A stretch of 64,000 bases of DNA from Caulobacter sp. (GTDB lineage: Bacteria; Pseudomonadota; Alphaproteobacteria; Caulobacterales; Caulobacteraceae), in contig NZ_JAGIBH010000006.1 of NCBI RefSeq assembly GCF_017744445.1, positions 1 to 64,000 of the forward strand, given 5' to 3'. A program made the position numbers and the translations under genes. Position 1 is the stretch's first letter; every line of letters starts with the position of its first letter. The notes under the pieces are model-generated. The model worked only from the letters and a program-made list of their open reading frames with translations. It was not told the DNA's origin and did not search any database. Shown piece after piece: positions 46,801 to 61,741 of the stretch.

Positions 46801-46963
46801 CATCAACGTCAGCTACGACGTGACCGAGAAGCTGTCGGTCTCCTTCGAAGGCATCAACCTGACCAAGGAGCACCTGCGCACCTACGCGCGTGACGAGAAG
46901 CAGGTCTGGTTCGCTCAAGAACTGGATCGCCGCTTCCTCCTCGGCGCCCGCTACCGCTTCTAG
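43868..46963 (+). CDS. TonB-dependent receptor (1031 aa) heading the SapC/halogenase operon
   Basis: Signal peptide SCVAITAAMFAGSAIAQT, TonB-box-like VDEIVVTGIRAS, then the plug of the Xanthomonas/Caulobacter receptor family: DTNLAESLQRITGVSIDRTN, then EGSQVTVRGFGPSFNLVTLN and GASATINVKT-type ending (seen as GIGATINVKTRRPL). A large barrel ends RRFLLGARYRF. Receptors followed by SapC, a cupin-like protein and a halogenase-type protein recur in Caulobacter and Xanthomonas sugar-uptake loci. LacI-type operators upstream support control by a sugar; which sugar is unknown. A terminator-like hairpin follows. Confidence 0.93.
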   Translation: MKRLRRLHASASCVAITAAMFAGSAIAQTQDSTAVDEIVVTGIRASLERSIEIKRNNSGVVDAISAEDMGKFPDTNLAESLQRITGVSIDRTNGEGSQVTVRGFGPSFNLVTLNGRTMPTARVATVGGDQSSDTAAGTSRSFDFSNLASEGVSTLEVYKTGRAAIPTGGIGATINVKTRRPLDGKPGLNGSIGVKGVYDTSMDKKVDDFGHKYTPEVSGLVNWVDDSEKFGVTLFGSYQKRDYTSRSATVNDWNIKSYADFINPDNGFVRPGGATQITNAPSSGSTWVAIPNDSRYHFAQGERERVNGQLTVQFRPVETMTITADALYANDKTFERRNDSTNWFNRPFDRVTFDKNPTVATAVLLSENLSGTKDTGFEQQYRGNEDSLKSFGLNGTWDVSDRFHVTVDGHISKADSKPNTPNGASSTAVSIAAPVLTTQTGNYESGIPIQSITFNDALRGNGNGQLDVGDLASQVARTWAQRQQQKVKEIRADFRWDLDDNGSRVEFGGNYRDSNMLQTSKSTQQDLGSWGMSSPRDVSASAGNLVKAFCLACQFNDFNLNQSGAGLVSFRANAIDLYNALSPVYAAKGNAVGVTGQENNRIQEKIASVYGQLVWKSELLDRPTELVAGLRYETTKTDAVSLVLVPSAIVWTADNDFTLKTSGVYQPLTGKGKYNNLLPSMDFKIELRDDLTGRFSFSRTIARPDYNNLFAAQSVGTPNRPVANGAIPLGAIGNTDLDPLVSDNVDVSLEWYYKPSSYISVGFFDKRVSNFVGTGTKMSSMFGLRDPSSGAPGTLSGNAKTALAAIGAGVGDVNLFTMAALIQTTGSVAAATAQFQANRLPSGDLNQAFVDQILAATDITASATDPLFNFQVSQPINKTGNIHGFEIAGQHFFGDTGFGVAGAYTLVRGDVGFNNAADPGQDQFALLGLSDTANATLIYEKYGFSARVAYNWRDKFLQATNRGGSRNPVNVAPFGQLDINVSYDVTEKLSVSFEGINLTKEHLRTYARDEKQVWFAQELDRRFLLGARYRF

Positions 46964-47062: not shown

Positions 47063-47785
47063 ATGAACCGAGTGCTTCTGAACAACGTCGACCACGCCGA
47101 CCTGCGCGTGATCGCCGGCCACGGCGTCGCCTATGGCGATGCGCTGAACCAGGTGCTGGTGCTGCCCACCGAGTTCGAGGCGGTGCAGCGCGAATATCCC
47201 ATCCTGATCCGCAAGGACGCCGCCGGGGCCTGGCAGGCCGTGGCGCTGCTGGGTCTGGACCGTGACGAGAACCTGTTCCTGGACGAGACCGGCTGGAACG
47301 CCCGCTACGTCCCGGCCGTGCAGCGGCGCGGCCCGTTCTCGATCGCGCTGCAACGCGACGAGCGGGGCGCAGAGCCCCGGCCGATGATCCATGTCGACCT
47401 GGATCACCCGCGCGTCAGCCGCGACGAAGGCGAGCGCCTGTTCCTGCCGGCTGGCGGCAACTCGCCGTACCTGCAAGGGATCAACCAGGCGCTGGGCCAG
47501 ATCCACGACGGCCTGGAGATCAGCGGCCCGATGTTCGCCTTCTTCGAGGAGCTGGGGCTGATCGAACCGATCGACATCGAGATCAAGCTGGGCGACCAGA
47601 CCAGCTACGACCTGCCCGACGTCTTCACCCTGGCCCCGGATCGCCTGGCGGCCATCACCGGCGAAGACCTGGAACGGCTGCACCAGTCGGGGCTGCTGCG
47701 CGCGGCGCATTGGATCATCTCGTCGATGGGCAACATCGAGGAGCTGGTCGCCCGCAAGACTCGTAAACAGGCTCATCTCGCATGA
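47063..47785 (+). CDS. SapC-family protein
   Basis: This 240-residue protein has no signal peptide. SapC features include HGVAYGDALNQVLVLPTEF, then QREYPILIRKD, AGAWQAVALLGLDRDENLFL and WNARYVPAVQRRGPFSIAL. The family was named after a Campylobacter S-layer-locus protein, but homologues mostly occur beside TonB receptors. Its biochemical role is unknown; it may be a cytosolic partner of the cupin-like and halogenase-like proteins. Its stop codon overlaps the next start (ATGA). Confidence 0.9.
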   Translation: MNRVLLNNVDHADLRVIAGHGVAYGDALNQVLVLPTEFEAVQREYPILIRKDAAGAWQAVALLGLDRDENLFLDETGWNARYVPAVQRRGPFSIALQRDERGAEPRPMIHVDLDHPRVSRDEGERLFLPAGGNSPYLQGINQALGQIHDGLEISGPMFAFFEELGLIEPIDIEIKLGDQTSYDLPDVFTLAPDRLAAITGEDLERLHQSGLLRAAHWIISSMGNIEELVARKTRKQAHLA

Positions 47786-48816
47786 CCGCGATCACCGCCC
47801 GTCGGACGCTGGAGACCACGGTGGCGACGCCGGGTCAGATCCCGTTCGAGGCGGTGCTGACCGGCCAGACCCCCATGCTGTTCAAGGGCCTGGCGCGCGA
47901 CTGGCCGCTGGTCCAGGCGGGCCTCCAGTCCGCCCAGGCGGCCCGCGACTACATCCGCGCCTACGACCGGGGCGGCCGGGTGGTGGGCTACACCGGCGAC
48001 GCGTCGATTGGCGGGCGCTTCTTCTACGACGACACCCACACGGCCATGAACTTCAAGGCCGAGCGCGCGCCGCTGGAGGTGTTCCTCCAGCGCCTGGAGG
48101 AGGTCGAGGGCCGCAACGACGCGCCGGCGGTCTATGTCGGCTCGGCCGACCTGGACGCCTATTTCCCCGACCTGAAGGCCGCCAACGATCTGGGCCTGGG
48201 CTCGGAGGTGTTCGGCCCCGAGCCGCCGATGGCCGGCATCTGGATCGGCAACCGCACGACAGCGGCGGCCCACTACGACATGTCCAACAACATCGCCATC
48301 TGCGCCGTGGGCCGGCGGCGCTTCACTCTGTTTCCGCCGGACCAGGTGGCCAACCTCTATCCCGGCCCGCTGGAGCCGACGCCCGGCGGCCAGGTGGTCA
48401 GCCTGGTCGACTTCCAAAATCCCAACTTCGACGCCCATCCCGGTTTCCGCGCGGCGATCGACAGCGCCCAGGTGGCGGAGATGGAGCCCGGCGACGTGCT
48501 GGTCTACCCGGCCCTGTGGTGGCACCAGGTCGAGGCGCTGGAGCCGTTCAACGTGCTGGTGAACAACTGGTGGAACAGCGCGCCGGCCCATCTGGACACG
48601 CCGATGACGACGCTGCTGCACGGCCTGCTGAGCCTGCGCGACCGGCCCGATTTCGAGAAGCAGGGCTGGAAGGCCCTGTTCGACTACTACGTGTTCGGTC
48701 CCGCCGACCGCGCGGGGGCGCCGATGCCCGAAGCCGCGCGCGGTCCACTGGGACCGATGGACCAGACCAAGGCCAGGCGGCTGCGGGCGTACCTGCTCGA
48801 CCGGCTGAACCGATAA
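47782..48816 (+). CDS. Cupin/JmjC-like (cupin_8) protein
   Basis: 344 residues with an N-terminal TPMLFKGLARDWPLVQAGL and a double-stranded beta-helix. The probable iron-binding set is H-x-D in AAHYDMSNN (near residue 170) and a distal His in LVYPALWWHQVEAL, as in 2-oxoglutarate-dependent JmjC-type hydroxylases. GRRRFTLFPPDQVANLYPGP is the typical substrate-side stretch. It is translationally coupled to SapC and followed 19 bases later by the halogenase-like gene. Whether it hydroxylates a protein or a small molecule is unknown. Confidence 0.88.
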   Translation: MTAITARRTLETTVATPGQIPFEAVLTGQTPMLFKGLARDWPLVQAGLQSAQAARDYIRAYDRGGRVVGYTGDASIGGRFFYDDTHTAMNFKAERAPLEVFLQRLEEVEGRNDAPAVYVGSADLDAYFPDLKAANDLGLGSEVFGPEPPMAGIWIGNRTTAAAHYDMSNNIAICAVGRRRFTLFPPDQVANLYPGPLEPTPGGQVVSLVDFQNPNFDAHPGFRAAIDSAQVAEMEPGDVLVYPALWWHQVEALEPFNVLVNNWWNSAPAHLDTPMTTLLHGLLSLRDRPDFEKQGWKALFDYYVFGPADRAGAPMPEAARGPLGPMDQTKARRLRAYLLDRLNR

Positions 48817-48835
48817 ACGAAGGGGAGGGGACGCC

Positions 48836-50335
48836 ATGACCCAGCAGACGATCCGCAAGGTGGTGATCGCGGGCGGCGGCACCGCTGGCTGGATGGCCGC
48901 CGCGGCCCTAGCCCGCCAGTTGGGCCCGCTGCTGGACATCACCCTGGTCGAGTCCGAGGACATCGGCACGGTCGGGGTCGGTGAATCGACCATCCCGACG
49001 GCCCGCACCTTCAACGCCCTGCTCGGCATCGACGAGCCAGAGTTCATGCGCGCCACCCAGGCGACCTTCAAGCTGGGCATCTCGTTCGAGCATTGGGGCG
49101 AGATCGGCGACCGCTACATCCACTCGTTCGGCCAGGTCGGCAAATCCACCTGGATGGGCGGTTTCCATCACTTCTGGCTGCAGGCCCAGGAGCAGGGTTT
49201 CGGCGGGGATCTGGGCGACTACTGTTTCGAGCTGAAGGCGGCCGAGCAGCACAGGTTCTTCACCGGCGAGCAGAGCCCGCTGAACTATGCCTACCACCTG
49301 GACGCCGGCCTCTACGGCCGCTTCCTGCGCGGCATGGCCGAGGGCGACGGCGTGCGCCGCGTCGAGGGCAAGATCGCCTCGGTGCGCCAGAACGCCGAGA
49401 GCGGCTTCGTCGAGGCCCTGGTCATGGAGAGTGGTGCGGTCGTCGAAGGCGACTTCTTCATCGACTGCACCGGTTTCCGGGGGCTGCTGATCGAGCAGAC
49501 CCTGAAGGCGGGATTCGAGGATTGGGGCCATTGGCTGCCGACCAACAGCGCCTTGGCCGTTCAGACCCGCTCGACCGAGCCGGCCGTGCCCTACACCCGC
49601 GCCATCGCCCACAAGGCCGGTTGGCGCTGGAAGATCCCGCTGCAGCACCGCGTGGGCAACGGCCTCGTCTACTGCAACGAATACATGTCCGACGACGAGG
49701 CGCGCGACATGCTAACGGCCGAGATCGAGGGCGAGACCCTAATCGAGCCGCGCCTGATCCGCTACCGCACGGGCCGCCGCCGCAAGACCTGGGACAAGAA
49801 CGTCGTGGCGCTAGGCTTGGCCAGCGGTTTTGTCGAGCCGCTGGAGTCGACGTCGATCCACCTGATCATGATCGGCATGACGCGCCTGATGAAGCTGTTC
49901 CCGTTCGGCGGCGTCAGCCAGGCGGCGGTCGACTTCTACAACCATCAGGCCGACGACGAGCTTGAGAAGATCCGCGACTTCATCATCCTGCACTACAAGG
50001 CGACCGAGCGGACCGACAGCCCGTTCTGGGACCGTGTGCGGACGATGGACATTCCCGACAGCCTGGCCCACCGGATCGAACTCTTCCGCGAGAGCGCCCA
50101 GGTCTACCAGGCGGCCGGCGAGCTGTTCCAGACCGACTCGTGGCTGCAGGTGCTGCTGGGCCAGCGTATCCAGCCCCAGACCTATCACCACATGGGCCGG
50201 CTGATGCCGCCGCAGCAGCTGAAGGCGGCGCTCGAGGATCTGAAGCGCAACATCGCCGGGGCGGTGACGCGCCTGCCGCAGCACCAGGCCTTCCTGGACA
50301 GCTACTGCGCCGAGCCGGTCAGCAAGAGCGCTTAA
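48836..50335 (+). CDS. FAD-dependent tryptophan-halogenase family protein
   Basis: The 499-residue protein has the FAD-binding GGGTAGWMAA motif (residues 13-22) and the family motif VGVGESTIPT. The catalytic lysine is at exactly position 79 (ATFKLGISF), as in PrnA. The halogenase signature GWRWKIPL is at 262-269, and Glu337 in EPLESTSIHL corresponds to the second catalytic residue. All the chemistry needed for flavin-dependent halogenation therefore looks intact. In this genomic setting (TonB receptor, SapC, cupin) the substrate is unknown, and it is not part of an antibiotic cluster. It converges with a glycosyltransferase gene, overlapping it by 4 bases. Confidence 0.93.
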   Translation: MTQQTIRKVVIAGGGTAGWMAAAALARQLGPLLDITLVESEDIGTVGVGESTIPTARTFNALLGIDEPEFMRATQATFKLGISFEHWGEIGDRYIHSFGQVGKSTWMGGFHHFWLQAQEQGFGGDLGDYCFELKAAEQHRFFTGEQSPLNYAYHLDAGLYGRFLRGMAEGDGVRRVEGKIASVRQNAESGFVEALVMESGAVVEGDFFIDCTGFRGLLIEQTLKAGFEDWGHWLPTNSALAVQTRSTEPAVPYTRAIAHKAGWRWKIPLQHRVGNGLVYCNEYMSDDEARDMLTAEIEGETLIEPRLIRYRTGRRRKTWDKNVVALGLASGFVEPLESTSIHLIMIGMTRLMKLFPFGGVSQAAVDFYNHQADDELEKIRDFIILHYKATERTDSPFWDRVRTMDIPDSLAHRIELFRESAQVYQAAGELFQTDSWLQVLLGQRIQPQTYHHMGRLMPPQQLKAALEDLKRNIAGAVTRLPQHQAFLDSYCAEPVSKSA

Positions 50336-51633
50336 GGCTCGATCGGCGCGAACAGCTTCTGCAGCGTGGCGCCGATCCGGGTCGTGGCCGGATCGGTGTC
50401 GGCCAGGCCCATGGCGTTCAGCTGCCAGCCCAGGCGGGCGCCGACATCCAGCAGGGGGCGGCTGGTGACCTGCGCGTTCGCCAGAGTCTCAATCGCCTGC
50501 GCATAGCGGGCGGCGTTGAGGTTCTCCAGCGCCCAGGCGCGAGCGGCCTTGCCCGTCTCGCGGCGCAGGGCCTCGTCGGCGACCAAGCGCTCGAGCACTT
50601 CGCGCAGCTCGTCGACCACGATCTCGCCGTCGATCTTGAACACCAGGTCGTCGGGCAGCTCGCCGTAGAAGCCGGCGCGGGCCACCACGGTCGGGCGGCC
50701 GCTGAGCATGCCTTCGCAGGCCGAGCCCGAAGCGCCTTCCAGCACCGGCTTGCGCAGGGCGACCATGATGTCGGCCTCGTCCAGGCGGCGGTCCAGGGTC
50801 TCGTCATCGACAGCGCCGTCGATGACCAGGTTCGCAAAGCCCACCTCGGCCGCGACGCCTTCCAGCTTGACGCGCTCCTCGTCCGAGATCGGGCCGACCA
50901 GGCGATAGACGCAGGCCTTCAGCGCGTCGGAACCGCCGATGGCGTGGATCACGTCGGCCACGCGCTTGTTGGGGTTCATCACCCCGACGGTGGTGAGGGT
51001 CAGCTGGCGCTTGGGCTTGGGCGGACCGGGCGGCGTGGCGCGATCGGGGCAGCACAGTGGCGTGACGTCCACCGGGCCGGTGACGACGGCCTCCAGCTTG
51101 GGCGCATAGAAGCGCGCATGGGCCAGGGCGGCCTGGCAGCGGCGAGCCAGCCATTCGGTCATCGGCAGATGCTTGGCGATCTCGCCCATGTCCAGCATCT
51201 GGCCCGAACGCACAGCTACGGCGTGGGGCAGGGCCGCCTCGCCATAGGTCGCGACGATCTCGGCGTCGTGCCGACGATAGTCCAGGCCGTTGTGGTACAG
51301 CCAGCCCGAGAACAGGTTGTAGATATAGAAGTCGTGGAAGATCCCCAGGCACGGCGCGGCGTCCAGCACGTGGAACACGCCGGCGTGGAAGGGGAAGTTG
51401 TCGCCGATATTGACGATGACGACGTCGAACTCGGTTCGCAGGCGCGACAGGTCGTAGCGGCGCCAGTGATGGACGGGCAGGGCGGTCGGGTGCAGCGGCT
51501 CCTCGCCGACCTCATCCTCGCAGCGCAGGATCTCGACCTGGTGGCCGCGCGCGGCCAGGGCCTGGGCGACCTCGGCGCTGACCCGGCCGATCGACGAGCG
51601 CAGGACGAAGGGCGTCACCCAGCAGATCTTCAT
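50332..51633 (-). CDS. Glycosyltransferase family 4-like
   Basis: The 433-residue GT-B protein has an N-terminal MKICWVTPFVLRSSIGRVSA, then DVVIVNIGDNFPFHAGVFHV. The C-terminal nucleotide-sugar half has TLTTVGVMNPNKRVADVIHA and the acidic ADIMVALRKPVLEGASGSAC followed by EGMLSGRPTV, the E-x7-E-like region of GT4 enzymes. It has no signal peptide. It follows the FkbM methyltransferase gene by 12 bases. Its position near S-layer and O-antigen genes suggests work on a cell-surface glycan; donor and acceptor are unknown. Confidence 0.87.
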   Translation of the reverse strand: MKICWVTPFVLRSSIGRVSAEVAQALAARGHQVEILRCEDEVGEEPLHPTALPVHHWRRYDLSRLRTEFDVVIVNIGDNFPFHAGVFHVLDAAPCLGIFHDFYIYNLFSGWLYHNGLDYRRHDAEIVATYGEAALPHAVAVRSGQMLDMGEIAKHLPMTEWLARRCQAALAHARFYAPKLEAVVTGPVDVTPLCCPDRATPPGPPKPKRQLTLTTVGVMNPNKRVADVIHAIGGSDALKACVYRLVGPISDEERVKLEGVAAEVGFANLVIDGAVDDETLDRRLDEADIMVALRKPVLEGASGSACEGMLSGRPTVVARAGFYGELPDDLVFKIDGEIVVDELREVLERLVADEALRRETGKAARAWALENLNAARYAQAIETLANAQVTSRPLLDVGARLGWQLNAMGLADTDPATTRIGATLQKLFAPIEP

Positions 51634-51645
51634 GCGGAGCAGTCC

Positions 51646-52887
51646 TTAGCGCTTCAGCAGGCGCTTTTCGGCGTCGCCGCCGGCGCGCACGAAGGCGATG
51701 TTGGCCGAAACCACCTTGGCGGCGGCCTTGGCGCTGGTCGGTTCGGCCGCGCTGGTCGCCTCGTCGATGATGTAGGCCTTGAAGCCGGCGTCGGCGAAGG
51801 CCTTGAACCACTGGACCGGGGTCTGGCCGACGCGCTTGAGGTGCTCGGGGCCGAACTCGGCGACGATGGCCAGGTCGGGATTCTTGGCGATCACGCCCTT
51901 CATGCCGGCCAGTACGTCCAGCTCGGCGCCCTCGACGTCGATCTTGACGACATCCATGCGCTTGGCAGGGGCGACATCGTCGAGGCGGACCACCTCGACC
52001 TGGATTTCGCGGGAGCCCTCGTTTTCGGGCAAGGCGTACAGCGAGCTGTGGCCGATGATGTCGCTGACGTGGAAGGTCAGCTGGCCAGCCTTCTCGCCGA
52101 CGGCCTGGTCGCGCACCTCAACCCAAGACAGGCCATTGAGATGCTTCATCTTTTCGAGGTTCGAGCGCGGAACGGCCTCGGGCTCGAACGAGATCACCCG
52201 ACCGCCGGGGCCGGTCGCCCAGGCCATGACGAGGGTCAGCATGCCGATATTGGCGCCGACGTCGGCGACCACCATGCCGGGCTGGACCAGGCGGCGCAGG
52301 ACGTCGCTGGTGCCGGGCTCCAGGCCCTTGCTGGTGGCGTTGGCCAGCATGGTGACGAAGGTCGGCAGGGCCGTGGGGGCCATGACATAGCCGTCGCGCA
52401 TGCGGATCGCGGTCGACTCGGCGTCGTAGTGGATCAGCGGCCGTTGCTTTATCTCCAGCTCGTCGAAGCGCGGGCCGAACAGGGCGGGTAGGGCGGCCAG
52501 CTCGCCATAGGCTTGGTCGCCGCGCGTCTCGATGCGTTGGGTGGCCGGTTCGATGCGCGCCAGCTGGGCCGTCATCGACTGCATGGCCGCGGCCGAGACC
52601 TGCTGTTGTTGCAGCACCAGATGCAGCAGGGTCTGGGTGTGGTCCAGACGCGCCTGGGTCGCGTGCAGCTCGCCGGACAGGGCGTTCAGATGGTGCTGGG
52701 TCTGGCGCAGCTCGTGCTCGACCGTGGCCTGCAGGTAGCGGCGGGCATAGTTGGCGACCGGCGAGAGCACCGGGGCCAGCAGGCGGCGCGCGAACGCGAA
52801 GCGGCGACGCGGCGGCGGACCGGCCGGGCCGGCTTCGGGCGAAACGTTCGGAGTCTCGGCGGCGGGAGCGCGCATCGCGGCGCTCAT
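51646..52887 (-). CDS. FkbM-family methyltransferase with N-terminal coiled coil
   Basis: 413 residues. The C-terminal half is an FkbM methyltransferase: SAM motif VVADVGANIGMLTLVMAWA, acidic VISFEPEAVPRSNLE, KIDVEGAELDVLAGM and a final AFADAGFKAYIIDE. The N-terminal ~140 residues hold a proline/arginine-rich start and a long predicted coiled coil rich in Gln, Leu and His (HELRQTQHHLNALSGELHAT through RIEPATQRIE), which may mediate oligomerisation. FkbM enzymes O-methylate sugars of surface polysaccharides. Together with the glycosyltransferase it probably modifies a glycan. The ATG at 52887 is used; Met5 is possible. Confidence 0.87.
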   Translation of the reverse strand: MSAAMRAPAAETPNVSPEAGPAGPPPRRRFAFARRLLAPVLSPVANYARRYLQATVEHELRQTQHHLNALSGELHATQARLDHTQTLLHLVLQQQQVSAAAMQSMTAQLARIEPATQRIETRGDQAYGELAALPALFGPRFDELEIKQRPLIHYDAESTAIRMRDGYVMAPTALPTFVTMLANATSKGLEPGTSDVLRRLVQPGMVVADVGANIGMLTLVMAWATGPGGRVISFEPEAVPRSNLEKMKHLNGLSWVEVRDQAVGEKAGQLTFHVSDIIGHSSLYALPENEGSREIQVEVVRLDDVAPAKRMDVVKIDVEGAELDVLAGMKGVIAKNPDLAIVAEFGPEHLKRVGQTPVQWFKAFADAGFKAYIIDEATSAAEPTSAKAAAKVVSANIAFVRAGGDAEKRLLKR

Positions 52888-53000
52888 CGCCAGGTCCAGG
52901 CGTGCGGGCCTCAAGTCAGTCCTTCCCGCGCGCGGCTCTCGCAAGACCCGTCGCGCCTCTGATCTGGCAACATCCGGAGCGCGAACTCCGGACGTTTCGT

Positions 53001-54575
53001 CTAGACCAGATTCCCGTCGTTCAGGAAGGACGAATGATTGCCGACCAGGCTGATCGAGCCGCCGTCGGCGAAGTCGAACGTCATGCTGGTCAGGTGGGTG
53101 GCCGCGCTGGCGTCATGCAGGATGCGGGCGTCGAACATCACGATGTCCGTGCCCTGCACCATCACCTCGACCACCATGGTGTGCGCCATGAAGTAGTCGA
53201 TGAATTGCTTGACCAGGTCCGACGAGACGAACGGCGAGGTCGGCGCCGCCGGAAGCGGCGCCGGCGTCGGGATCGGCGTCGGTGCGACCGGCGTCTGGAT
53301 CGGCGCCGTGTCGGTCGGTTCCGTCGGCGTCGGCGTCGACGTCAAGCTGTCCTGCGGCGGGGCCGCCGGCGTTTCGGCCACGGGCGTGGTGACGACGGGT
53401 TCGGCCGGAGCGGCAGGCGCGCTGGGCGGCGTGACCGCGTAGTGATCACCCTTGGAGATCAACTCGGCCAGGATGTCGGGCAGCTTGGCGACTTCGATTA
53501 CCGAAATCTTCTGCGCGCCGGTATCGCCGGCCAGGCCGCGGATCAGCTGCACGGCTTCGACCGAGGGGAGGCCGCTGAGCGACAGGCCCAGGCGCACGTC
53601 GAGCGCCCAGTTCGCCGCATCGCTGGTCGGCGCGGGCAGGGGGGAGAGTTCGATGCCGTGGCTGGGCGGGCCGCCGCCGCCATTTCCACCGCCGCTACCG
53701 CCGCCGCCGCCGATCATGCCCTCAGAGGCGGAGGCTTCGAGTTGCGGCATGGTCGAGAGGATCGCCACCAGCGACAGCACGCTCGAGACCGTCTGGACCG
53801 GCGTGTTCTCGATCACCGTCGCGTGCGTCGTCGGCATGAGCAGCGCGCTGCTGTCCTGGCTGTGCTGGGCGGGCGCGCCGCCGAAGTCGAGCGAGGCCGC
53901 CGCCGCGGAGATCGCCGCGCGGGCGGACGCGTCCAGGCTGGCGGTGTCGACGCCGTAGTCCGAGGCCAGCAGAGCCGCGGCCAGGATCAGCACGGCCTGA
54001 TTGGCCGGAACCTGCACGGAATCATAAGTAGGCTGCTGGAAGCCGACGGGCGCGACGCCGTTCGTCAGGCCGGCGTTCGAGCTGGACGACAGGAGCGCCG
54101 GGCGGGCGTGACCCGACTGCGGCGGGTTGGCCGCGCCGGTCTCGGCCGCGCGGGCCTCGCCCGTCTTGAAGAAGGCGGTGCCGACCACGGCGACCAGCAG
54201 GGCCGCGGGGTGGATCGACAGGTTGCTGTTGTTGTCGGCGCGACGGATCAGCGGGTGGCGGGCCACCATGTTGCGGACCAGGGCCGAGAAATCGAACCCA
54301 CGGGCGATCTCTTCATAGGCCGGGCCGGCGATCAGATATTCGCCGTCGATGCGCGCGAAGTGAATCACCACCTCGCCGTCGTCGGAACGATAGAAGACGA
54401 ACCACGGCTCGTTCTCGTCGCTCAGGCCGCGGTCGGTGCCGACGCGGATGCCGGCGCGGATCAGGGCGCTCTCGACGCGATAGAACTCGGCCAGCTCCTG
54501 CTGGGTCCAGTCTACCGACGGAGTGGGCGCGTAGCGCGGCGAACGCTGAAAGAACGAAAGGACCTGAGCGGCCAT
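53001..54575 (-). CDS. Unrecognised single-pass membrane protein beside the S-layer locus (524 aa)
   Basis: I do not recognise a family. An N-terminal globular domain (about 1-110) has QELAEFYRVESALIRAGIRV, then ENEPWFVFYRSDDGEVVIHF and YEEIARGFDFSALVRNMVAR. A hydrophobic segment follows (about 121-136, IHPAALLVAVVGTAFFKTGE). Then come ~170 residues rich in Ala and Ser, a poly-Gly stretch (GGGGGSGGGNGGGG, about 287-300), a helical domain and a Pro/Thr linker of about 75 residues. The C-terminal domain (FVSSDLVKQFIDYFMAHTMV to SSFLNDGNLV) completes it. The plan suggests a cytosolic head, one membrane pass and a long exported stalk. It lies between the FkbM gene and the XRE gene. Confidence 0.8.
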   Translation of the reverse strand: MAAQVLSFFQRSPRYAPTPSVDWTQQELAEFYRVESALIRAGIRVGTDRGLSDENEPWFVFYRSDDGEVVIHFARIDGEYLIAGPAYEEIARGFDFSALVRNMVARHPLIRRADNNSNLSIHPAALLVAVVGTAFFKTGEARAAETGAANPPQSGHARPALLSSSSNAGLTNGVAPVGFQQPTYDSVQVPANQAVLILAAALLASDYGVDTASLDASARAAISAAAASLDFGGAPAQHSQDSSALLMPTTHATVIENTPVQTVSSVLSLVAILSTMPQLEASASEGMIGGGGGSGGGNGGGGPPSHGIELSPLPAPTSDAANWALDVRLGLSLSGLPSVEAVQLIRGLAGDTGAQKISVIEVAKLPDILAELISKGDHYAVTPPSAPAAPAEPVVTTPVAETPAAPPQDSLTSTPTPTEPTDTAPIQTPVAPTPIPTPAPLPAAPTSPFVSSDLVKQFIDYFMAHTMVVEVMVQGTDIVMFDARILHDASAATHLTSMTFDFADGGSISLVGNHSSFLNDGNLV

Positions 54576-54642
54576 ACGGTGGACGTTTCCCCACGTCTAG
54601 ACGAGCTGCCGGCTTCCCTCCGGCGGCGGCACACTAACCGAA

Positions 54643-54942
54643 CTACTCTCCGCTGAACAGGATTTCGTAGGTGATCGGATCGTAGAAGCGGAGCAGTTCG
54701 CGGACGAAAGTCTTTTCCGACACCTCGAGGGCCTGCGCCCAGTCGCGATAACGGTCCGGCGGAATGCGGCCGCGGCCCGTCTCTAGCTGAGAGATGAAGG
54801 TATAGTAGTCGGCGCCCACCTTGGCGGCGAGCTGGCGTTGCGACAGGCCGGCGGCCTCGCGTTGCTCTTTAAGCCAGCGACCGCCCTCGCGGCGGAGGTC
54901 TTGAACCTCCGAGGCGCTGCGGCGTTGTGGATTGCCGTACAT
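54643..54942 (-). CDS. Small XRE-family DNA-binding protein divergent from rsaA
   Basis: 99 residues from the ATG at 54942, which follows a GAGG ribosome binding site; an upstream GTG would add five residues. The centre is a lambda-repressor-type HTH (LKEQREAAGLSQRQLAAKVG then ADYYTFISQLETGRGRIPPD), and the C-terminal half (RYRDWAQALEVSEKTFVREL) ends in LRFYDPITYEILF. No sensor domain is present. It is divergent from the S-layer gene with 265 bases between start codons, and candidate palindromic operators lie in that gap, so control of rsaA and of itself is a reasonable hypothesis. Confidence 0.88.
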   Translation of the reverse strand: MYGNPQRRSASEVQDLRREGGRWLKEQREAAGLSQRQLAAKVGADYYTFISQLETGRGRIPPDRYRDWAQALEVSEKTFVRELLRFYDPITYEILFSGE

Positions 54943-55062: not shown

Positions 55063-55111
55063 GAATTTGCTGTACCGGTTAGAAAAATGCTGTACCCCGC
55101 GATTTCAGGTA

Positions 55112-55207: not shown

Positions 55208-58200
55208 ATGGCCTATACCACGGCCCAGTTGGTGACTGCGTACACCAACGCTAACCTCGGCAAGGCGCCCGACGCCGCCACCACCCTGACGCTGGACGCC
55301 TACGCGTCGCAGTCGCAAACCGGTGGCATCTCGGACGCCGCCGCTCTGGCGAACACCCTGAAGCTGGTGAACAACACGACGGCCGTCGCCGTCGAAACCT
55401 ACCAGTTCTTCACCGGCCGCGCTCCGTCGGCCGCTGGTCTGTCGTACCTGGTCAACTCGACCACCAACACGAACGACCTGAACGACACCTACTACTCGAA
55501 GTTCGGCCAAGAAAACCGCTTCATCAACTTCTCGATCAACCTGGCCACCGGCGCCGGTGAAGGCGCTGCCGCCTTCGCGACCGCCTATGGTTCGGTCTCG
55601 TACGCTCAAACCGTCGCTTCGGCCTATGACAAGATCATCGGCAACGAAGTCGCCAAGGCCGCCGGCGTCGACGTCGCCGCCGCCGTGGCTTACCTGAGCC
55701 GCGCCGAGAACGTCACCTACCTGACGAACTTCGTGAAGGCCAACACGACCCTGACGGCCGCGGCCGACATCGATCTGGCCGTCAAGGCCGCCCTGATCGG
55801 TGAAATCCTGAACGCCGCCACGGTGTCGGGCCTGGGTGGTTACGCCACCGCCACGACCGCTCTGATCAACGACCTGTCGGACGGCACCCTGACGTCGGAC
55901 AACGCCGCTGGCGTGAACATCTTCACGGCCTACCCGTCGTCGGGCGCCGTTGGTAAGTCGTTCGTGCTGACCACGGGCGCTGATACCGGCGCTACGTTCG
56001 TCGGCACCACCGGCAACGACACCTACACGGCCGCTGAAGTCGGCGGTAACACCGTGTTCACCGTCGGTGACTCGGTCGATGGCGGCGCTGGCGTCGACAC
56101 CCTGAACATCACGCAGACGGGCGCCTTCGCGATGCCGGTCGGCGCGACCGTCTCGAACATCGAAGTCGTCAACCTGACCACGGGCACCTCGGGCTCGGTG
56201 ATCGACACGTCGACCTGGACCGGCGTGACCACCCTGGGCGTCATCGGTACGGGCGCTCAGACCGTCACCGCCGCCACCACCACCAACGTCACCGTTGGCG
56301 ATGCGACCCTGGGCGCCAGCGCTCTGTCGGTCACCGGTGGTTCGGCCGTCAACGTGACGACCGCCACGACCGCCGGTGGCACCATCGCCGTGTCGGGCGC
56401 CGCTGGCGCTGTCACCGTGAAGGCCACCGTCAATGGCACCGGCGCTACGACGCAGGGCACCATCGGCGTGACCGGCGGTACGGCCATCAACATCACGACG
56501 GCCGCGACCCAAGCCACGAACAACACCTCGACCACGCAGGCCGCCATCACCGCCACCGGCGGTGCGACGACCACGTCGGTCACGGTTGTTGAACAAGCCG
56601 CTGTCGCCGCTGGCGCCTCGGCCAAGGGCATCATCGGCGGCGCCGTCACGGTTCTGGACGCTAACCGCACCAGCGCCACGAAGGCCGGCACGATCGCCAC
56701 TGTCTCGCTGACCAACTACGGCGACGGCAGCACGATCAACTCGGGCGCTCTGACCACCCTGAACCTCAGCGGCACCGTCGGTGACCTGGGTGTCACCACC
56801 GGCGCTCTGACGACGGCGGCTGTCACCACCCTGGCCCTGAACGTCAACGCCGTCAGCAAGGCCGCCAACGTCGCCGACAACGACCTGACGATCGACACCG
56901 ACATCACGACGCTGAACATCACGTCGTCGACCAAGGCTTCGACCTTCAGCAACGTGACCGCCGCTGGCGTGACCACGCTGAACATCGCTGGCGACGCCAA
57001 GCTGACCCTGACCGCCGACACCTTCGCCGCGCTGACCTCGGTCGTCTCGACGAACACCGCTGGCGTGACCCTGGGCACCGCCCTGGCCGCTGGCACCGCC
57101 TTCGCGGGCGGCGCTGGCGCCGACACCATCACCCTGTCGAACCTCTTCACGAAGGCGATCACGCTGGGCGCTGGTGACGACAAGGTGACCTACGGTGGCG
57201 CTGCTGGCACGGGCGGTTCGGTTGTGGCCGGCGACGGCACCGACACCATCGTGATGACGGGCGCTCAAGCCGCTGCGGCTTCGGGTTCGGCTGTGTTCAA
57301 CAACAGCTTCTCGGGCTTCGAAGTCCTCGACGTGACCACCCCGGCTGCCACCACCATCAACCTGGCTGGCATCAACGGCGTGAACAGCGTCGTGACCCGC
57401 GGCGCCACCGGCGTCACGCTGAACGGCTACACCTCGGGCGGCACGCTGACCATCGATGCGGCCAGCACCACCATCAACGCCAACGTCACGAACGCTGTCC
57501 TGTCGGCCAGCGACGTGTTCAACATCAAGGTCACGGGCGCTGCCACGGTTGCCGCTGGCACCGTCGTCGCGACCGGCGTTGAAACCATCAACGTCACCGC
57601 GACCGACACGGACGTGGATGGCGGCGCCAACCTGCACACGCTGACCATCAGCGACGCCGACGCCACGAAGATCACCGTGGCTGGCAACACCGGTATCAAC
57701 CTGACGAACACGACGGCCACCCTGGTGACCACGTTTGACGCCAGCGCGCACACCGGCGACGCCAACGACGGCGCGGGCGTGGGCTACACCTCGGCCTACG
57801 TCGGTGCGAGCACCACCTCGATCACCGGTGGCGCTGGTAACGACACCCTGACCGGCGCGTCGGCCAAGGACGTCATCGTCGGCGGCGCTGGCGACGACAC
57901 GATCACGGGCGGTACGGGCATCGACACCCTGACGGGTGGCGCTGGCGCCGACACCTTCAAGTTCGCGTCGGGCGATGCTGGCATCACGGGTACGGAAAAG
58001 ATCACGGACTACACCACCGGCACCGGCGGTGACATCCTGGATCTGGCCACCACCACCCTGATCGCCGACAACGCCGGCGTGACGGTCATCGGCGCCGTTG
58101 GCGGCGCTGTCGACCTGACCGCGGTTGTCAAGAACGGCGTGATCACCCTGTCGGGCGCCGACGTTGGCCTCGTCGACACGATCGGCGAAATCAAGGCCAT

Positions 58201-58387
58201 CTTCGAGCTGCTGGACACGGACGGCGCTGCCGACGTCGGTGCGATCCAACTGGGTAACAACACCTACGTGCTGATCGACAACGGCGCTGGCCCGGATGTC
58301 ACCACCGACATCATCCAGCTGACCGGCGTCACCGGCATCACCTCGGTTGGCGGCGCCGACGGCGCTCACGCCATCCACATCGCCTAA
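55208..58387 (+). CDS. rsaA: S-layer protein RsaA (type I secretion substrate, RTX-like)
   Basis: The 1059-residue protein forms the hexagonal surface array. It has no N-terminal signal peptide. Residues 1 to ~245 (MAYTTAQLVTAYTNANLGKA onward) closely match the C. crescentus RsaA domain that binds O-antigen; C. crescentus RsaA is 1026 residues. After that the sequence is Thr/Ala/Gly-rich beta-type with little visible identity, except calcium-binding repeats: GGAGVDTLNI near 293, GGAGADTIT and LGAGDDKVTY near 635-660, and a cluster at about 874-915 (GGAGNDTLTG, GGAGDDTITGGTGIDTLTG, GGAGADTFKF). The uncleaved C-terminal secretion signal ends GGADGAHAIHIA. Codons GCT, GGT and GAA are commoner than in neighbouring genes. 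A terminator separates it from rsaD. Confidence 0.97.
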   Translation: MAYTTAQLVTAYTNANLGKAPDAATTLTLDAYASQSQTGGISDAAALANTLKLVNNTTAVAVETYQFFTGRAPSAAGLSYLVNSTTNTNDLNDTYYSKFGQENRFINFSINLATGAGEGAAAFATAYGSVSYAQTVASAYDKIIGNEVAKAAGVDVAAAVAYLSRAENVTYLTNFVKANTTLTAAADIDLAVKAALIGEILNAATVSGLGGYATATTALINDLSDGTLTSDNAAGVNIFTAYPSSGAVGKSFVLTTGADTGATFVGTTGNDTYTAAEVGGNTVFTVGDSVDGGAGVDTLNITQTGAFAMPVGATVSNIEVVNLTTGTSGSVIDTSTWTGVTTLGVIGTGAQTVTAATTTNVTVGDATLGASALSVTGGSAVNVTTATTAGGTIAVSGAAGAVTVKATVNGTGATTQGTIGVTGGTAINITTAATQATNNTSTTQAAITATGGATTTSVTVVEQAAVAAGASAKGIIGGAVTVLDANRTSATKAGTIATVSLTNYGDGSTINSGALTTLNLSGTVGDLGVTTGALTTAAVTTLALNVNAVSKAANVADNDLTIDTDITTLNITSSTKASTFSNVTAAGVTTLNIAGDAKLTLTADTFAALTSVVSTNTAGVTLGTALAAGTAFAGGAGADTITLSNLFTKAITLGAGDDKVTYGGAAGTGGSVVAGDGTDTIVMTGAQAAAASGSAVFNNSFSGFEVLDVTTPAATTINLAGINGVNSVVTRGATGVTLNGYTSGGTLTIDAASTTINANVTNAVLSASDVFNIKVTGAATVAAGTVVATGVETINVTATDTDVDGGANLHTLTISDADATKITVAGNTGINLTNTTATLVTTFDASAHTGDANDGAGVGYTSAYVGASTTSITGGAGNDTLTGASAKDVIVGGAGDDTITGGTGIDTLTGGAGADTFKFASGDAGITGTEKITDYTTGTGGDILDLATTTLIADNAGVTVIGAVGGAVDLTAVVKNGVITLSGADVGLVDTIGEIKAIFELLDTDGAADVGAIQLGNNTYVLIDNGAGPDVTTDIIQLTGVTGITSVGGADGAHAIHIA

Positions 58388-58643: not shown

Positions 58644-60368
58644 ATGATCTTCAACCGCTCCGGCGCGAAGCCCACCATCCTTGATCGCGCGGTCGAGGTC
58701 ATGAAGCCGGCGGTGATCACCGCCATGGTCTTCAGCTTCTTCATCAACATCCTGGCGCTGGTCAGCCCGCTGTACATGCTGCAGGTCTATGACCGCGTGC
58801 TGTCCAGCCGCAACGTCGGGACGCTGGTGGTGCTGACCATCATCTGCGTCTTCCTGTTCATCATCTACGGCCTGCTGGAAGCGCTGCGCACGCAGGTGCT
58901 GGTGCGCGGCGGCCTGAAGTTCGACGGTACGGCGCGCGATCCCATCTTCCGGGCGGTGCTGGAATCGACGCTGACGCGCAAGGGCGGCGGCGGCCAGGCC
59001 TTCCGTGACATGGACCAGATCCGCGAGTTCCTGGCCGGCGGCCTGATCGCGTTCTGCGACGCGCCGTGGACCCCGGTGTTCATCGTGGTCTCGTGGATCC
59101 TGCACCCCTTCTTCGGCGTCCTGGCCATCATCAGCTGCTTCATCATCTTCGGTCTGGCGATGATGAATGACCGCGCCACCAAGAACCCGATCCAGATGGC
59201 CACCATGGCCTCGATCGCCGCCCAGAACGACGCGGGCTCCACCCTGCGCAACGCCGAGGTCATGAAGGCCATGGGCATGTGGGGCGGCCTGCAGCAGCGC
59301 TGGCGCCTGCGCCGCGACGAGCAGGTGGCCTGGCAGGCCGCCGCCAGCGACGCCGGCGGCGCCGTGATGTCGGGCATCAAGGTCTTCCGCCAGGTCGTGC
59401 AGACCCTGATCCTGGGCGGCGGCGCCTATCTGGCGATCCAGGGCAAGATCTCGCCCGGTTCGATGATCGCGGGCTCGATCCTGGTCGGCCGCGCCCTGGC
59501 GCCGATCGAAGGCGCCGTCGGGCAGTGGAAGAACCTGATCGGCACGCGCGGCGCCTGGGATCGCCTGCAAGGCATGCTGCGCGACCAGGCCAATACCGAA
59601 GATCACATGCCGCTGCCCGAGCCGCGCGGCGTGCTGTCGGCGGAAGCCGCCTCGATCCTGCCCCCCGGCGCTCAGCAGCCGTCGATGCGCCAGGCCAGCT
59701 TCCGCATCGACGCCGGCACTTCGGTCGGCATCGTCGGCCCCAGCGCGGCCGGCAAGTCGTCGCTGCTGCGCGGCATCGTCGGCGTCTGGCCGTGCGCGGC
59801 GGGCGTGATCCGTCTCGACGGCTACGACATCAAGCAGTGGGATCCCGAGAAGCTGGGCCGCCACATCGGCTACCTGCCGCAGGATATCGAGCTGTTTCAG
59901 GGCACGGTCGCCCAGAACATCGCCCGCTTCACCGAGTACGAATCCCAGGAAGTCATCGACGCGGCCACGCTGGCGGGCGTCCATGAGATGATCCAGGGCC
60001 TGCCCATGGGCTACGACACGCCGATCGGCGAAGGCGGCGCCTCGCTGTCGGGCGGTCAACGCCAGCGCCTGGCCCTGGCCCGTTCGGTCTTCCGGATGCC
60101 GGCCCTGCTGGTGCTGGACGAGCCGAACGCCAGCCTGGACCAGACGGGCGAACTCGCCCTGATGGAGGCCATGAACCGCCTGAAGGCCGCCAAGCGCACG
60201 GTGATCTTCGCCACCCACAAGGTGAACCTGCTGAACCAGGCGGACTACATCATGGTCGTCAATCAAGGCGTCATCGCCGACTTCGGCGAGCGTGACGCCA
60301 TGCTGGCCAAGCTGACCGGGGCTGCTCCGCCGCAGGCGCCGGCGCCCACGCCGATCCGCGCCAACTGA
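58644..60368 (+). CDS. rsaD: Type I secretion ABC transporter RsaD
   Basis: This 574-residue inner-membrane permease-ATPase exports the S-layer protein. The N-terminal half has helices including VITAMVFSFFINILALVSPL and VLTIICVFLFIIYGLLEALR. The C-terminal ATPase has Walker A GPSAAGKSS (Lys371), Q-loop GYLPQDIELFQGTVAQNI, signature LSGGQ (468-472), Walker B LLVLDEPNASLD (Asp492) and a switch His in FATHKVNLL. It has no extra N-terminal peptidase domain, as expected for RTX/S-layer exporters. It follows rsaA after the terminator and is itself followed by rsaE; the outer-membrane partner (rsaF) is not in the window. Confidence 0.96.
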   Translation: MIFNRSGAKPTILDRAVEVMKPAVITAMVFSFFINILALVSPLYMLQVYDRVLSSRNVGTLVVLTIICVFLFIIYGLLEALRTQVLVRGGLKFDGTARDPIFRAVLESTLTRKGGGGQAFRDMDQIREFLAGGLIAFCDAPWTPVFIVVSWILHPFFGVLAIISCFIIFGLAMMNDRATKNPIQMATMASIAAQNDAGSTLRNAEVMKAMGMWGGLQQRWRLRRDEQVAWQAAASDAGGAVMSGIKVFRQVVQTLILGGGAYLAIQGKISPGSMIAGSILVGRALAPIEGAVGQWKNLIGTRGAWDRLQGMLRDQANTEDHMPLPEPRGVLSAEAASILPPGAQQPSMRQASFRIDAGTSVGIVGPSAAGKSSLLRGIVGVWPCAAGVIRLDGYDIKQWDPEKLGRHIGYLPQDIELFQGTVAQNIARFTEYESQEVIDAATLAGVHEMIQGLPMGYDTPIGEGGASLSGGQRQRLALARSVFRMPALLVLDEPNASLDQTGELALMEAMNRLKAAKRTVIFATHKVNLLNQADYIMVVNQGVIADFGERDAMLAKLTGAAPPQAPAPTPIRAN

Positions 60369-60430
60369 TCCGTCCGTTCGCCCCCATTTTCTAAGGCCGC
60401 CTCGTGCGCGCCCATCAGGCTGAAGACAAG

Positions 60431-61741
60431 ATGAAGCCCCCCAAGATCCAGCGTCCGACGGACAACTACCAAGGCGTGGCGCGTATCGGCTACGCCATCA
60501 TCGGCATCACCTTCGTGGGGCTGCTGGGCTGGGCGGCGCTCGCGCCGCTGGACAGCGCGGTGATCGCCAACGGCGTCGTGTCGGCCGAAGGCAACCGCAA
60601 GACCATCCAGCACCTGGAAGGCGGCATGCTCCGCAAGATCCTGGTGCGTGAAGGCGAGAAGGTGAAGGCCGGGCAGCTGCTGTTCGAGCTGGATCCGACC
60701 CAGGCCAATGCCGCCGCCGGCATCACCAAGAACCAGTATGTGGCGTTGCGGGCGATGGAAGCCCGCCTGCTGGCCGAACGTGACCAGCGGCCGTCGATCA
60801 CCTTTCCCGCCGATCTGCTGAACCAGCGCGCCGACCCGATGGTGGCGCGGGCCATCTCCGACGAGCAGGCCCAGTTCCTGGAACGCCGCCAGACGATCTC
60901 GGGTCAGGTCGACCTGATGAACGCCCAGCGCGACCAGTACCAGAGCGAGATCGACGGCATCGAGCGCCAGACCCAGGGCCTGAAGGACCAGCTGGGTTAT
61001 ATCGAGGACGAGCTCTCGGACCTGCGCAAGATCTACGACAAGGGCCTGGTGCCGCGTCCGCGCCTGCTGGCGATGGAGCGTGAACAGGCTTCGCTGTCGG
61101 GCTCGATCGGTCGCTTGACCGCCGACCGCGCCAAGGCGGTGCAGGGCATGTCGGAGACGCAGCTGAAGATCCGTCAGATCAAGCAGCAGTTCTTCCAGGA
61201 AGTCAGCCAATCCATCACCGAGACCCGCGTGAAGCTGGCCGAAGTGACCGAAAAGGAAGTGGTGGCTTCGGACGCCCAGCGCCGGATCAATGTCGTGTCG
61301 CCGGTGAGCGGCACGGCGCAGAACCTGCGCTTCTTCACCGAGGGCGCCGTGGTGCGTCCGGCCGAGCCGCTGGTCGACATCGCGCCGGATGACGAGGCGT
61401 TCGTCATCCAGGCCCACTTCGCGCCGACCGACGTCGACAACGTCCATACGGGCATGGTCACGGAAGTTCGCCTGCCGGCCTTCCACTCGCGCGAGATCCC
61501 GATCCTGAACGGCAAGATCGAGGCGCTGTCGCGCGACCGGATCTCCGATCCCGAGAACAAGACGGCCTATTTCCTGGGTGTCGTCCGGGTCGACATCAAG
61601 CAGCTGCCCAAGGAGTTCCGCGCCAAGGTCACCGCCGGCATGCCTGCCCAGGTGGTCGTGCCCACGGGCGAGCGCACCGTGTTGCAGTACCTGTTCTCGC
61701 CGCTGCGCGACACCCTGCGCACCACCATGCGCGAGGAGTAG
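60431..61741 (+). CDS. rsaE: Type I secretion membrane fusion protein RsaE (HlyD family)
   Basis: The ATG at 60431 gives 436 residues, which is the RsaE length I recall; a GTG nine codons upstream is the alternative. One N-terminal membrane helix (IGYAIIGITFVGLLGWAALA) is followed by the lipoyl half-motif GNRKTIQHLEGGMLRKILVR, a long coiled-coil hairpin (about 130-285) and the second lipoyl half INVVSPVSGTAQNLRFFTEG. The C-terminal beta-barrel holds the HlyD signature (VRVDIKQLPKEFRAKVTAGM, then PAQVVVPTGERTVL). It bridges RsaD to an outer-membrane channel. Confidence 0.95.
   Translation: MKPPKIQRPTDNYQGVARIGYAIIGITFVGLLGWAALAPLDSAVIANGVVSAEGNRKTIQHLEGGMLRKILVREGEKVKAGQLLFELDPTQANAAAGITKNQYVALRAMEARLLAERDQRPSITFPADLLNQRADPMVARAISDEQAQFLERRQTISGQVDLMNAQRDQYQSEIDGIERQTQGLKDQLGYIEDELSDLRKIYDKGLVPRPRLLAMEREQASLSGSIGRLTADRAKAVQGMSETQLKIRQIKQQFFQEVSQSITETRVKLAEVTEKEVVASDAQRRINVVSPVSGTAQNLRFFTEGAVVRPAEPLVDIAPDDEAFVIQAHFAPTDVDNVHTGMVTEVRLPAFHSREIPILNGKIEALSRDRISDPENKTAYFLGVVRVDIKQLPKEFRAKVTAGMPAQVVVPTGERTVLQYLFSPLRDTLRTTMREE

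Follow-up and report, generated by a model that had tools for sequence, protein, structure and literature searches.

In the FecI-FecR system, a transcription factor is encoded next to the protein that controls it, in which a single membrane helix joins a cytosolic N-terminal domain to an exported sensor. A different arrangement is the retention module of LapA-type RTX adhesins, in which a protein related to type I secretion (T1SS) is held at the envelope by its N-terminus. The S-layer protein RsaA of Caulobacter is an RTX protein exported by a T1SS, as reviewed in PMC3034196, and the S-layer is the receptor of bacteriophage phiCr30 (PMC4241560); the published RsaA literature, in the parts searched, names no regulator that links RsaA synthesis to export. 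Here we describe a pair of genes next to rsaA, encoding a small XRE-family regulator and a predicted bitopic membrane protein that we call SMP, within the window (the whole 64,000-nucleotide stretch of Caulobacter sp. DNA that was analysed).

The rsaA gene, followed by rsaD and rsaE, is divergent from the XRE-SMP pair, and genes for an FkbM methyltransferase, a glycosyltransferase and a tryptophan halogenase lie on the opposite side (Table 1). The SMP reading frame extends from an ATG at 54575 to a stop at 53001, and the 327 matches at E≤1e-3 (SMP itself counted) obtained in a protein search that scored 7998 candidates argue for a real gene. Among the 120 matches listed, the other 119 are 52–82 % identical to SMP; those listed under an organism name come from Caulobacter, except for one Cupriavidus MAG, and include a 498-residue SMP of Caulobacter vibrioides (P0063). 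Among the source labels of close relatives (P0112 and P0115) are 'STS1 protein' and 'uncharacterized membrane protein YgcG', for which we found no support. Elsewhere in the window, SapC-family (PF07277), Cupin_8 and tryptophan-halogenase genes (47063–50335, plus strand) come after a 1031-residue ORF (43868–46963), and this block keeps its place beside the S-layer locus in other Caulobacter. In Chelatococcus (L016), a SapC-like gene and a 1055-residue ORF adjoin the pair, and a match to the motif described below lies about 10 bp before that ORF.

Table 1. Features of the XRE-SMP and rsaA region, in window coordinates
Feature	Coordinates	Strand	Basis
SMP, 524 residues, predicted bitopic membrane protein	53001..54575	-	Translation and protein search
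SMP N-terminal domain, residues 1–115, conserved, predicted cytosolic, alpha-beta4-alpha	54231..54575	-	Alignments A5 and A8; AlphaFold2
Predicted membrane-spanning segment of SMP, residues 119–135	54171..54221	-	Hydropathy scan, 69 relatives
Ala-Arg-Ala, SMP residues 141–143, possible signal peptidase I site past the membrane segment	54147..54155	-	Permissive AxA-type match
SMP poly-glycine linker	53671..53717	-	Sequence
SMP C-terminal alpha/beta domain, residues 450–524	53004..53228	-	AlphaFold2 and hhalign
XRE-family regulator, 99 aa, divergent from rsaA, CCNA_01058 type	54643..54942	-	HTH_3; subfamily alignment A6
Tandem GTACAGCA element, 20-bp period, between XRE and rsaA; candidate XRE operator	55068..55095	-	Conservation, genome uniqueness, de novo motif
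rsaA, S-layer RTX protein; proposed target	55208..58387	+	RsaA_NTD 5.4e-58, HemolysinCabind (Pfam)
rsaD, T1SS ABC transporter	58644..60368	+	TIGR01842, 788 bits
rsaE, T1SS adaptor (HlyD family)	60404..61741	+	TIGR01843, 466 bits
FkbM methyltransferase, downstream of SMP, same strand, conserved neighbour	51646..52944	-	PF05050, TIGR01444; synteny
Glycosyltransferase, conserved neighbour	50332..51633	-	PF00534; synteny

The first-pass annotation had described a 524-residue protein of no recognised family, with an N-terminal domain, one membrane pass, poly-Gly and Pro/Thr linkers and a distinct C-terminal domain. Translation and an AlphaFold2 model agree with this layout, and searches with SMP found no Pfam family at E≤1, nothing in NCBIfam at E≤0.1 and no PADLOC family at E≤0.01; neither a FecR or anti-sigma domain nor RTX repeats (PF00353) were matched in SMP itself (Pfam, E≤1). 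No known defence or toxin family in these three libraries was matched by SMP, and the XRE protein gave weak HTH matches alone to defence families (e.g. capH at 8e-5 in PADLOC, and couple_hipB at 23.3 bits against a cut-off of 71.65 in NCBIfam), giving no sign of an anti-phage defence or toxin-antitoxin pair.

The model of full-length SMP, built on a 69-row alignment, has an overall pLDDT of 61.8. Its N-terminal domain (about residues 25–106) is a helix, four strands and a helix, with a pLDDT of 73–95 by block and a mean of 85.5 when folded alone; in a comparison with solved folds, Frataxin/CyaY and T4 MotA-C among the candidates, none was outstanding. A helix at residues 123–139 is modelled at low confidence (pLDDT about 60), the Gly-rich and Pro/Thr-rich linkers are likewise of low confidence and modelled as disordered, and the C-terminal alpha/beta domain (residues 452–513) is confident, the pLDDT being 87–97 over residues 451–520. 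In 69 relatives, residues 100 to 200 were scanned for the 17-residue stretch of highest hydropathy, which lies mostly past the N-terminal domain, although it was misplaced in at least two rows; the mean charge of its flanks is +1.2 before and −0.9 after, the pattern that an N-inside helix would show. We infer that SMP crosses the inner membrane once, with its predicted cytosolic N-terminus inside. An AxA-type tripeptide follows soon after the hydrophobic stretch in 63 of the 69 (a permissive pattern, counted without a control). The N-terminal domain is the conserved part of the protein and the region past the membrane segment the variable part. By hhalign (94 %, E 1.4e-7), Caulobacter-type SMPs and distant non-RTX SMPs have homologous C-terminal domains; compared with the C-termini of RTX/RsaA-like proteins of the loci, SMP C-termini scored 0.5 % and 0.1 %, no better than reversed controls. 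Five of ten relatives scanned match PF00353 (L051, L062, L064, L068 and L070) and the other five do not (L054, L075, L017, L059 and L061); up to 13 GGxGxD motifs were counted in some relatives, and the RTX-bearing proteins of L062–L064 and L068 adjoin T1SS genes.

The small XRE regulator that the first-pass annotation had placed beside SMP, facing rsaA, is indeed a member of that family, its HTH_3 match (35.8 bits) exceeding the curated Pfam cut-off of 23. It represents a distinct subfamily, whose YYTFISQ-type core hardly varies and whose conserved tail contains Y-D/E-P and ends in LF (alignment A6).

Sequence comparison shows the two genes to be a conserved unit. A genome-contig scan with SMP gave 12 loci, eight aligned at full or nearly full length and four over the first 143–160 residues alone (L015–L018, the last three being from Chelatococcus, Caenispirillum and a Rhodospirillaceae bacterium), and an XRE gene lies directly upstream of SMP in all 12. 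Further neighbourhoods (29, and 10 more that are mostly XRE genes without a found partner) brought the sources to 52 (the window, L007–L018, L051–L079 and L132–L141), related loci included, and here an XRE gene lies upstream on the same strand, within 220 bp as measured between profile ends, in 41 of 44 loci with the SMP N-terminal domain. Not counted in the 44 are L077, a contig-end fragment, and L134, whose E value is above the 1e-5 cut-off. Domain loci without an adjacent XRE gene are L060 and L061, of the same genus, in which it is found about 5 kb downstream, beyond T1SS genes, and L069, with no XRE gene within the stretch read. The distances among XRE proteins and among partner domains are correlated (Mantel r 0.77 over 33 non-redundant pairs; highest of 5000 permutations, 0.26), a sequence-level relationship that shows co-inheritance and not contact. 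The domain is almost alone in L137 and L134 (158 and 102 aa), in a gene overlapping the XRE gene by 4 bases, which points to the N-terminal domain itself as the probable partner of XRE; the L134 match is weak (E 5e-5) and has no further hydrophobic stretch, and in L137 the domain is followed by about 50 residues that may include a membrane segment, without a long exported part.

The SMP N-terminal domain was detected in 17 of 385 genomes of the class with the first profile (18 with a broader alignment) and in 8 of 200 genomes of the order with the first profile. The XRE subfamily, at E≤1e-12, was present in 25 of the 385 (two weak), including all 18 domain genomes. The pair belongs to a wider, unnamed alphaproteobacterial family of putative regulators and partners, often tied to T1SS/RTX loci. 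A second XRE-SMP pair, with an RTX match, is located elsewhere in the window's genome (L051 9525–11311, contig C82); its operator type differs (ACAGTTTTTATGCAAC) and closely resembles the one found with pairs of a sister genus.

In a survey of 75 Caulobacter genomes (cut-offs of E≤1e-50 for SMP and E≤1e-150 for rsaD), rsaA-type SMP was found in 22 and rsaD in 18, and the 53 genomes without rsaA-type SMP are all without rsaD at its cut-off. The suggested link to rsaA was supported: in all 18 rsaD genomes SMP is on the same contig, with 2.9–5.4 kb between its N-terminal domain and rsaD, and a synteny check set beforehand, in which a position away from the rsaA locus in most Caulobacter genomes was to count against the link, did not find SMP so placed. 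In the SMP genomes without rsaD (G612, G619, G637 and G638), SMP is close to the end of a contig; completeness is 76–87 % for three of these four. The order SMP-XRE-rsaA-rsaD-rsaE, with XRE divergent from rsaA, occurs in 15 of the 18 (14 read, plus the window); in L191, L193 and L197 there is no intervening rsaA, and XRE and SMP precede rsaD in the same orientation. Several of the 21 genus-survey loci are the same records as loci of the 12-locus scan. In those rsaA-type loci whose read stretch reaches that far, SMP is followed by FkbM and glycosyltransferase genes of the same orientation. The rsaA frame of one 4.1-Mb Caulobacter genome (G541; L053 10726–14105) appears as two overlapping ORFs in different frames.

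Beyond the rsaA-type loci, the pair has T1SS ABC and HlyD genes as neighbours in L014, L017, L059–L064 and L068; in L054 both are 8–10 kb away, and L018 has a cut HlyD gene. An RTX ORF of 2145 codons is located about 5 kb from the pair in L058, an XRE gene stands beside an RTX ORF in L141, and XRE genes for which no domain was found adjoin T1SS genes in L133, L135 and L136 (one family). Within the stretch read, no T1SS lay close to the pair for L051 (the second copy in the window's genome) and its relatives L052, L073 and L078, for L016, L055, L058, L065–L067, L070–L072 and L074–L076, or on the short contigs L015, L056 and L057. In several lineages, then as a matter of gene neighbourhood, XRE-SMP is linked to RTX/S-layer genes and to type I secretion. 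Two further arrangements were recorded: in L132 (5608–11854), two XRE-subfamily genes flank a 996-residue RsaA-like ORF and no partner domain was found, and a Glyco_trans_4_3 (PF12000) glycosyltransferase neighbours the pair or its T1SS in two genera (L062 7921–9180; L061 11427–12686).

Between XRE and rsaA, GTACAGCA occurs twice, 20 bp apart. The tandem pattern is kept, with slight alterations, across nine aligned loci (a single base differs in L012, and the spacing is one shorter in L008) and has a single occurrence in the 5.34-Mb assembly of the window, as does its 18-base site when up to three mismatches are allowed (reversed control, 1). De novo analysis of 38 non-redundant XRE-upstream regions yielded the motif (GT)ACAGTAATTTTCTAAC, with a log-likelihood of 138 against 52, 54 and 58 in three block-shuffled controls (250 starting points in the real run, 120 in the controls); it reaches at least 9 bits in 33 of the 38 regions and is weak or absent at the other five XRE genes. 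When 832 kb from 47 of the 52 sources were scanned at a cut-off of 15 bits with XRE-upstream stretches masked, six of the 12 matches of at least 15 bits lay at T1SS ABC (five) or RsaA-like (one) genes, against 0.28 expected (binomial p 1.4e-7), a statistic that counts related loci apart and becomes three of nine when collapsed by genus. One further match, in L017, lies about 190 bp before an RsaA-like gene that the cut-off used for labelling genes missed. The exact pattern ACAGTRANYTNNTAAC gave nine matches in six of 14 whole genomes (reversed control, 3): five before T1SS ABC genes, already known when the pattern was chosen, one before XRE, and three, not known at that time, about 470–490 bp before an RTX ORF with eight or nine GGxGxD motifs in the part read, all in one genus. 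Among the 21 genus-survey loci, some of which overlap the motif training set, 17 have exactly one match of at least 14 bits, in the XRE-upstream intergenic region and facing rsaA in the 15 where rsaA was read; L191, L193 and L204 have no match at this level, and L197 has one, before an RsaA-like gene.

From this distribution we infer that the XRE protein binds the tandem GTACAGCA sites. The site lies 36–56 bp before the XRE start codon, as chosen, in L017, L018, L054, L055 and L059. By eye, the tandem sites appear to precede the likely −35 region of rsaA, a placement more usual for activators; a promoter scan of the XRE-rsaA region found no promoter there.

The genes have counterparts in published work. 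CCNA_01058 is a helix-turn-helix regulator on the minus strand (PMC5869019) and CCNA_01059 is CC_1007, that is rsaA (PMC3885167); since SMP follows XRE in the Caulobacter loci retrieved and C. vibrioides has the 498-residue SMP mentioned above, gene order identifies CCNA_01057 as the SMP orthologue. In a Tn-seq experiment following phiCr30 challenge, insertions in CCNA_01057 were enriched more than 400-fold and those in rsaA more than 160-fold, and the authors call CCNA_01057 required for S-layer assembly (PMC4241560). Where the text and legend of that report name genes with a ratio above 50, they do not include CCNA_01058, nor rsaD and rsaE, nor the FkbM and glycosyltransferase genes. The CCNA_01058 RNA is listed elsewhere among those co-purifying with the small RNA GsrN (PMC5869019). 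The idea of an S-layer accessory is partly supported: a role in S-layer display fits the CCNA_01057 phenotype, but specificity for the S-layer is not supported, as the pair is also found at other T1SS/RTX loci and, within the window's own genome, has a further copy remote from rsaA.

We propose, at somewhat short of an even chance, that the XRE protein and the bitopic SMP constitute one trans-envelope switch for S-layer/RTX export, probably a repressor with its membrane-tethered anti-repressor. The XRE protein would bind the tandem sites between its own gene and rsaA and repress both, and SMP, crossing the inner membrane once, would control it through the predicted cytosolic N-terminal domain and so have a positive effect on rsaA. 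During normal secretion and assembly SMP would keep XRE off the DNA; were the envelope or the secretion route to fail, SMP would free XRE and RsaA synthesis would stop. The RTX repeats on the exported part of some relatives could sense export or calcium. The least certain step is the direction of control. An anti-repressor is preferred over a co-activator because the Tn-seq text and legend, in the parts seen, name CCNA_01057 and not CCNA_01058, an absence that fits a repressor, and because in five distant loci the sites are at a distance from the XRE start at which a repressor would act; the silence on CCNA_01058 is a weak argument, since rsaD and rsaE go unnamed as well. More tentatively, the switch may be a class-wide, undescribed device: a protein that passes the membrane once, and whose exported domain is a calcium-binding RTX domain in many members, would restrain an XRE repressor and thereby couple S-layer/RTX synthesis to T1SS export.

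The Tn-seq phenotype would also be expected if SMP were itself an S-layer assembly or anchoring factor, its exported part helping RsaA to exit or attach and XRE merely setting the dose of the pair and of rsaA. Such a role would suit the description given by the authors of the Tn-seq study (PMC4241560, in the parts seen), the linkers leading to a folded C-terminal domain, and the variability of the region past the membrane segment. We nevertheless consider it unlikely: what is conserved is the predicted cytosolic N-terminal domain, which stands almost alone beside XRE in two genomes, and the pair is also present where no S-layer gene or T1SS is seen nearby. Those relatives that do carry PF00353 (half of the ten scanned) and the T1SS neighbours in several lineages bring to mind a T1SS cargo or plug, in which an RTX-like C-terminus enters the T1SS, the N-terminus and helix stay behind and mark or gate the exporter, and XRE is an ordinary local regulator. 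SMP itself, however, has no RTX match and its C-terminus no detectable homology to RTX C-termini, and the possible signal peptidase site past the helix suggests Sec export, which makes this explanation rather improbable. Slightly less credit still is given to a polar effect, whereby insertions in CCNA_01057 silence the downstream FkbM and glycosyltransferase genes. The products of these genes might act on the O-antigen to which RsaA is anchored, and the pair would then play no direct part in the S-layer. The conserved gene order on the SMP strand would permit such an effect, but these two genes are themselves unnamed among those with a ratio above 50 in the Tn-seq text and legend (PMC4241560, as far as seen), and the shared sites in the XRE-rsaA intergenic region implicate rsaA itself.

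The pair offers a concrete candidate for the regulator that the RsaA literature searched does not name, having named laboratory-strain genes, a candidate operator unique in the window's assembly and a published phage phenotype. Since further T1SS/RTX loci of Alphaproteobacteria have this pair beside them, what is learned in Caulobacter could apply to other surface proteins. Knowledge of XRE-SMP may also help S-layer display work, which uses the rsaA regulatory region (PMC8546985).

Several described systems resemble the pair in part. FecR and other anti-sigma regulators resemble SMP in the outline of the predicted layout and in being encoded beside a presumed regulator partner, but the partner here is an XRE protein and not a sigma factor, SMP is without any Pfam match at E≤1, and the exported part in the SMP family bears RTX repeats in some members or is a distinct alpha/beta domain. 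RTX proteins exported by T1SS share GGxGxD motifs with some SMP relatives, some of which adjoin T1SS genes, whereas SMP itself lacks the repeats and its family is defined by the conserved N-terminal domain, mostly followed by a membrane segment. From LapA-type modules, compared by description only, SMP differs in that its N-terminal domain is paired with an XRE gene. Among XRE-family repressors and controller proteins, the closest PDB sequence match of the XRE profile is C.BclI (2b5a, E 6.5e-8); the HTH_3 domain is shared, as is, in most subfamily members, a site upstream of the gene itself, but the subfamily described here is distinct and often tied to T1SS/RTX loci. Trans-envelope regulators are a known kind, and the suggestion that this pair was undescribed holds within the family libraries and literature searched, where the combination of an XRE protein with a predicted bitopic, sometimes RTX-bearing partner appears to be new.
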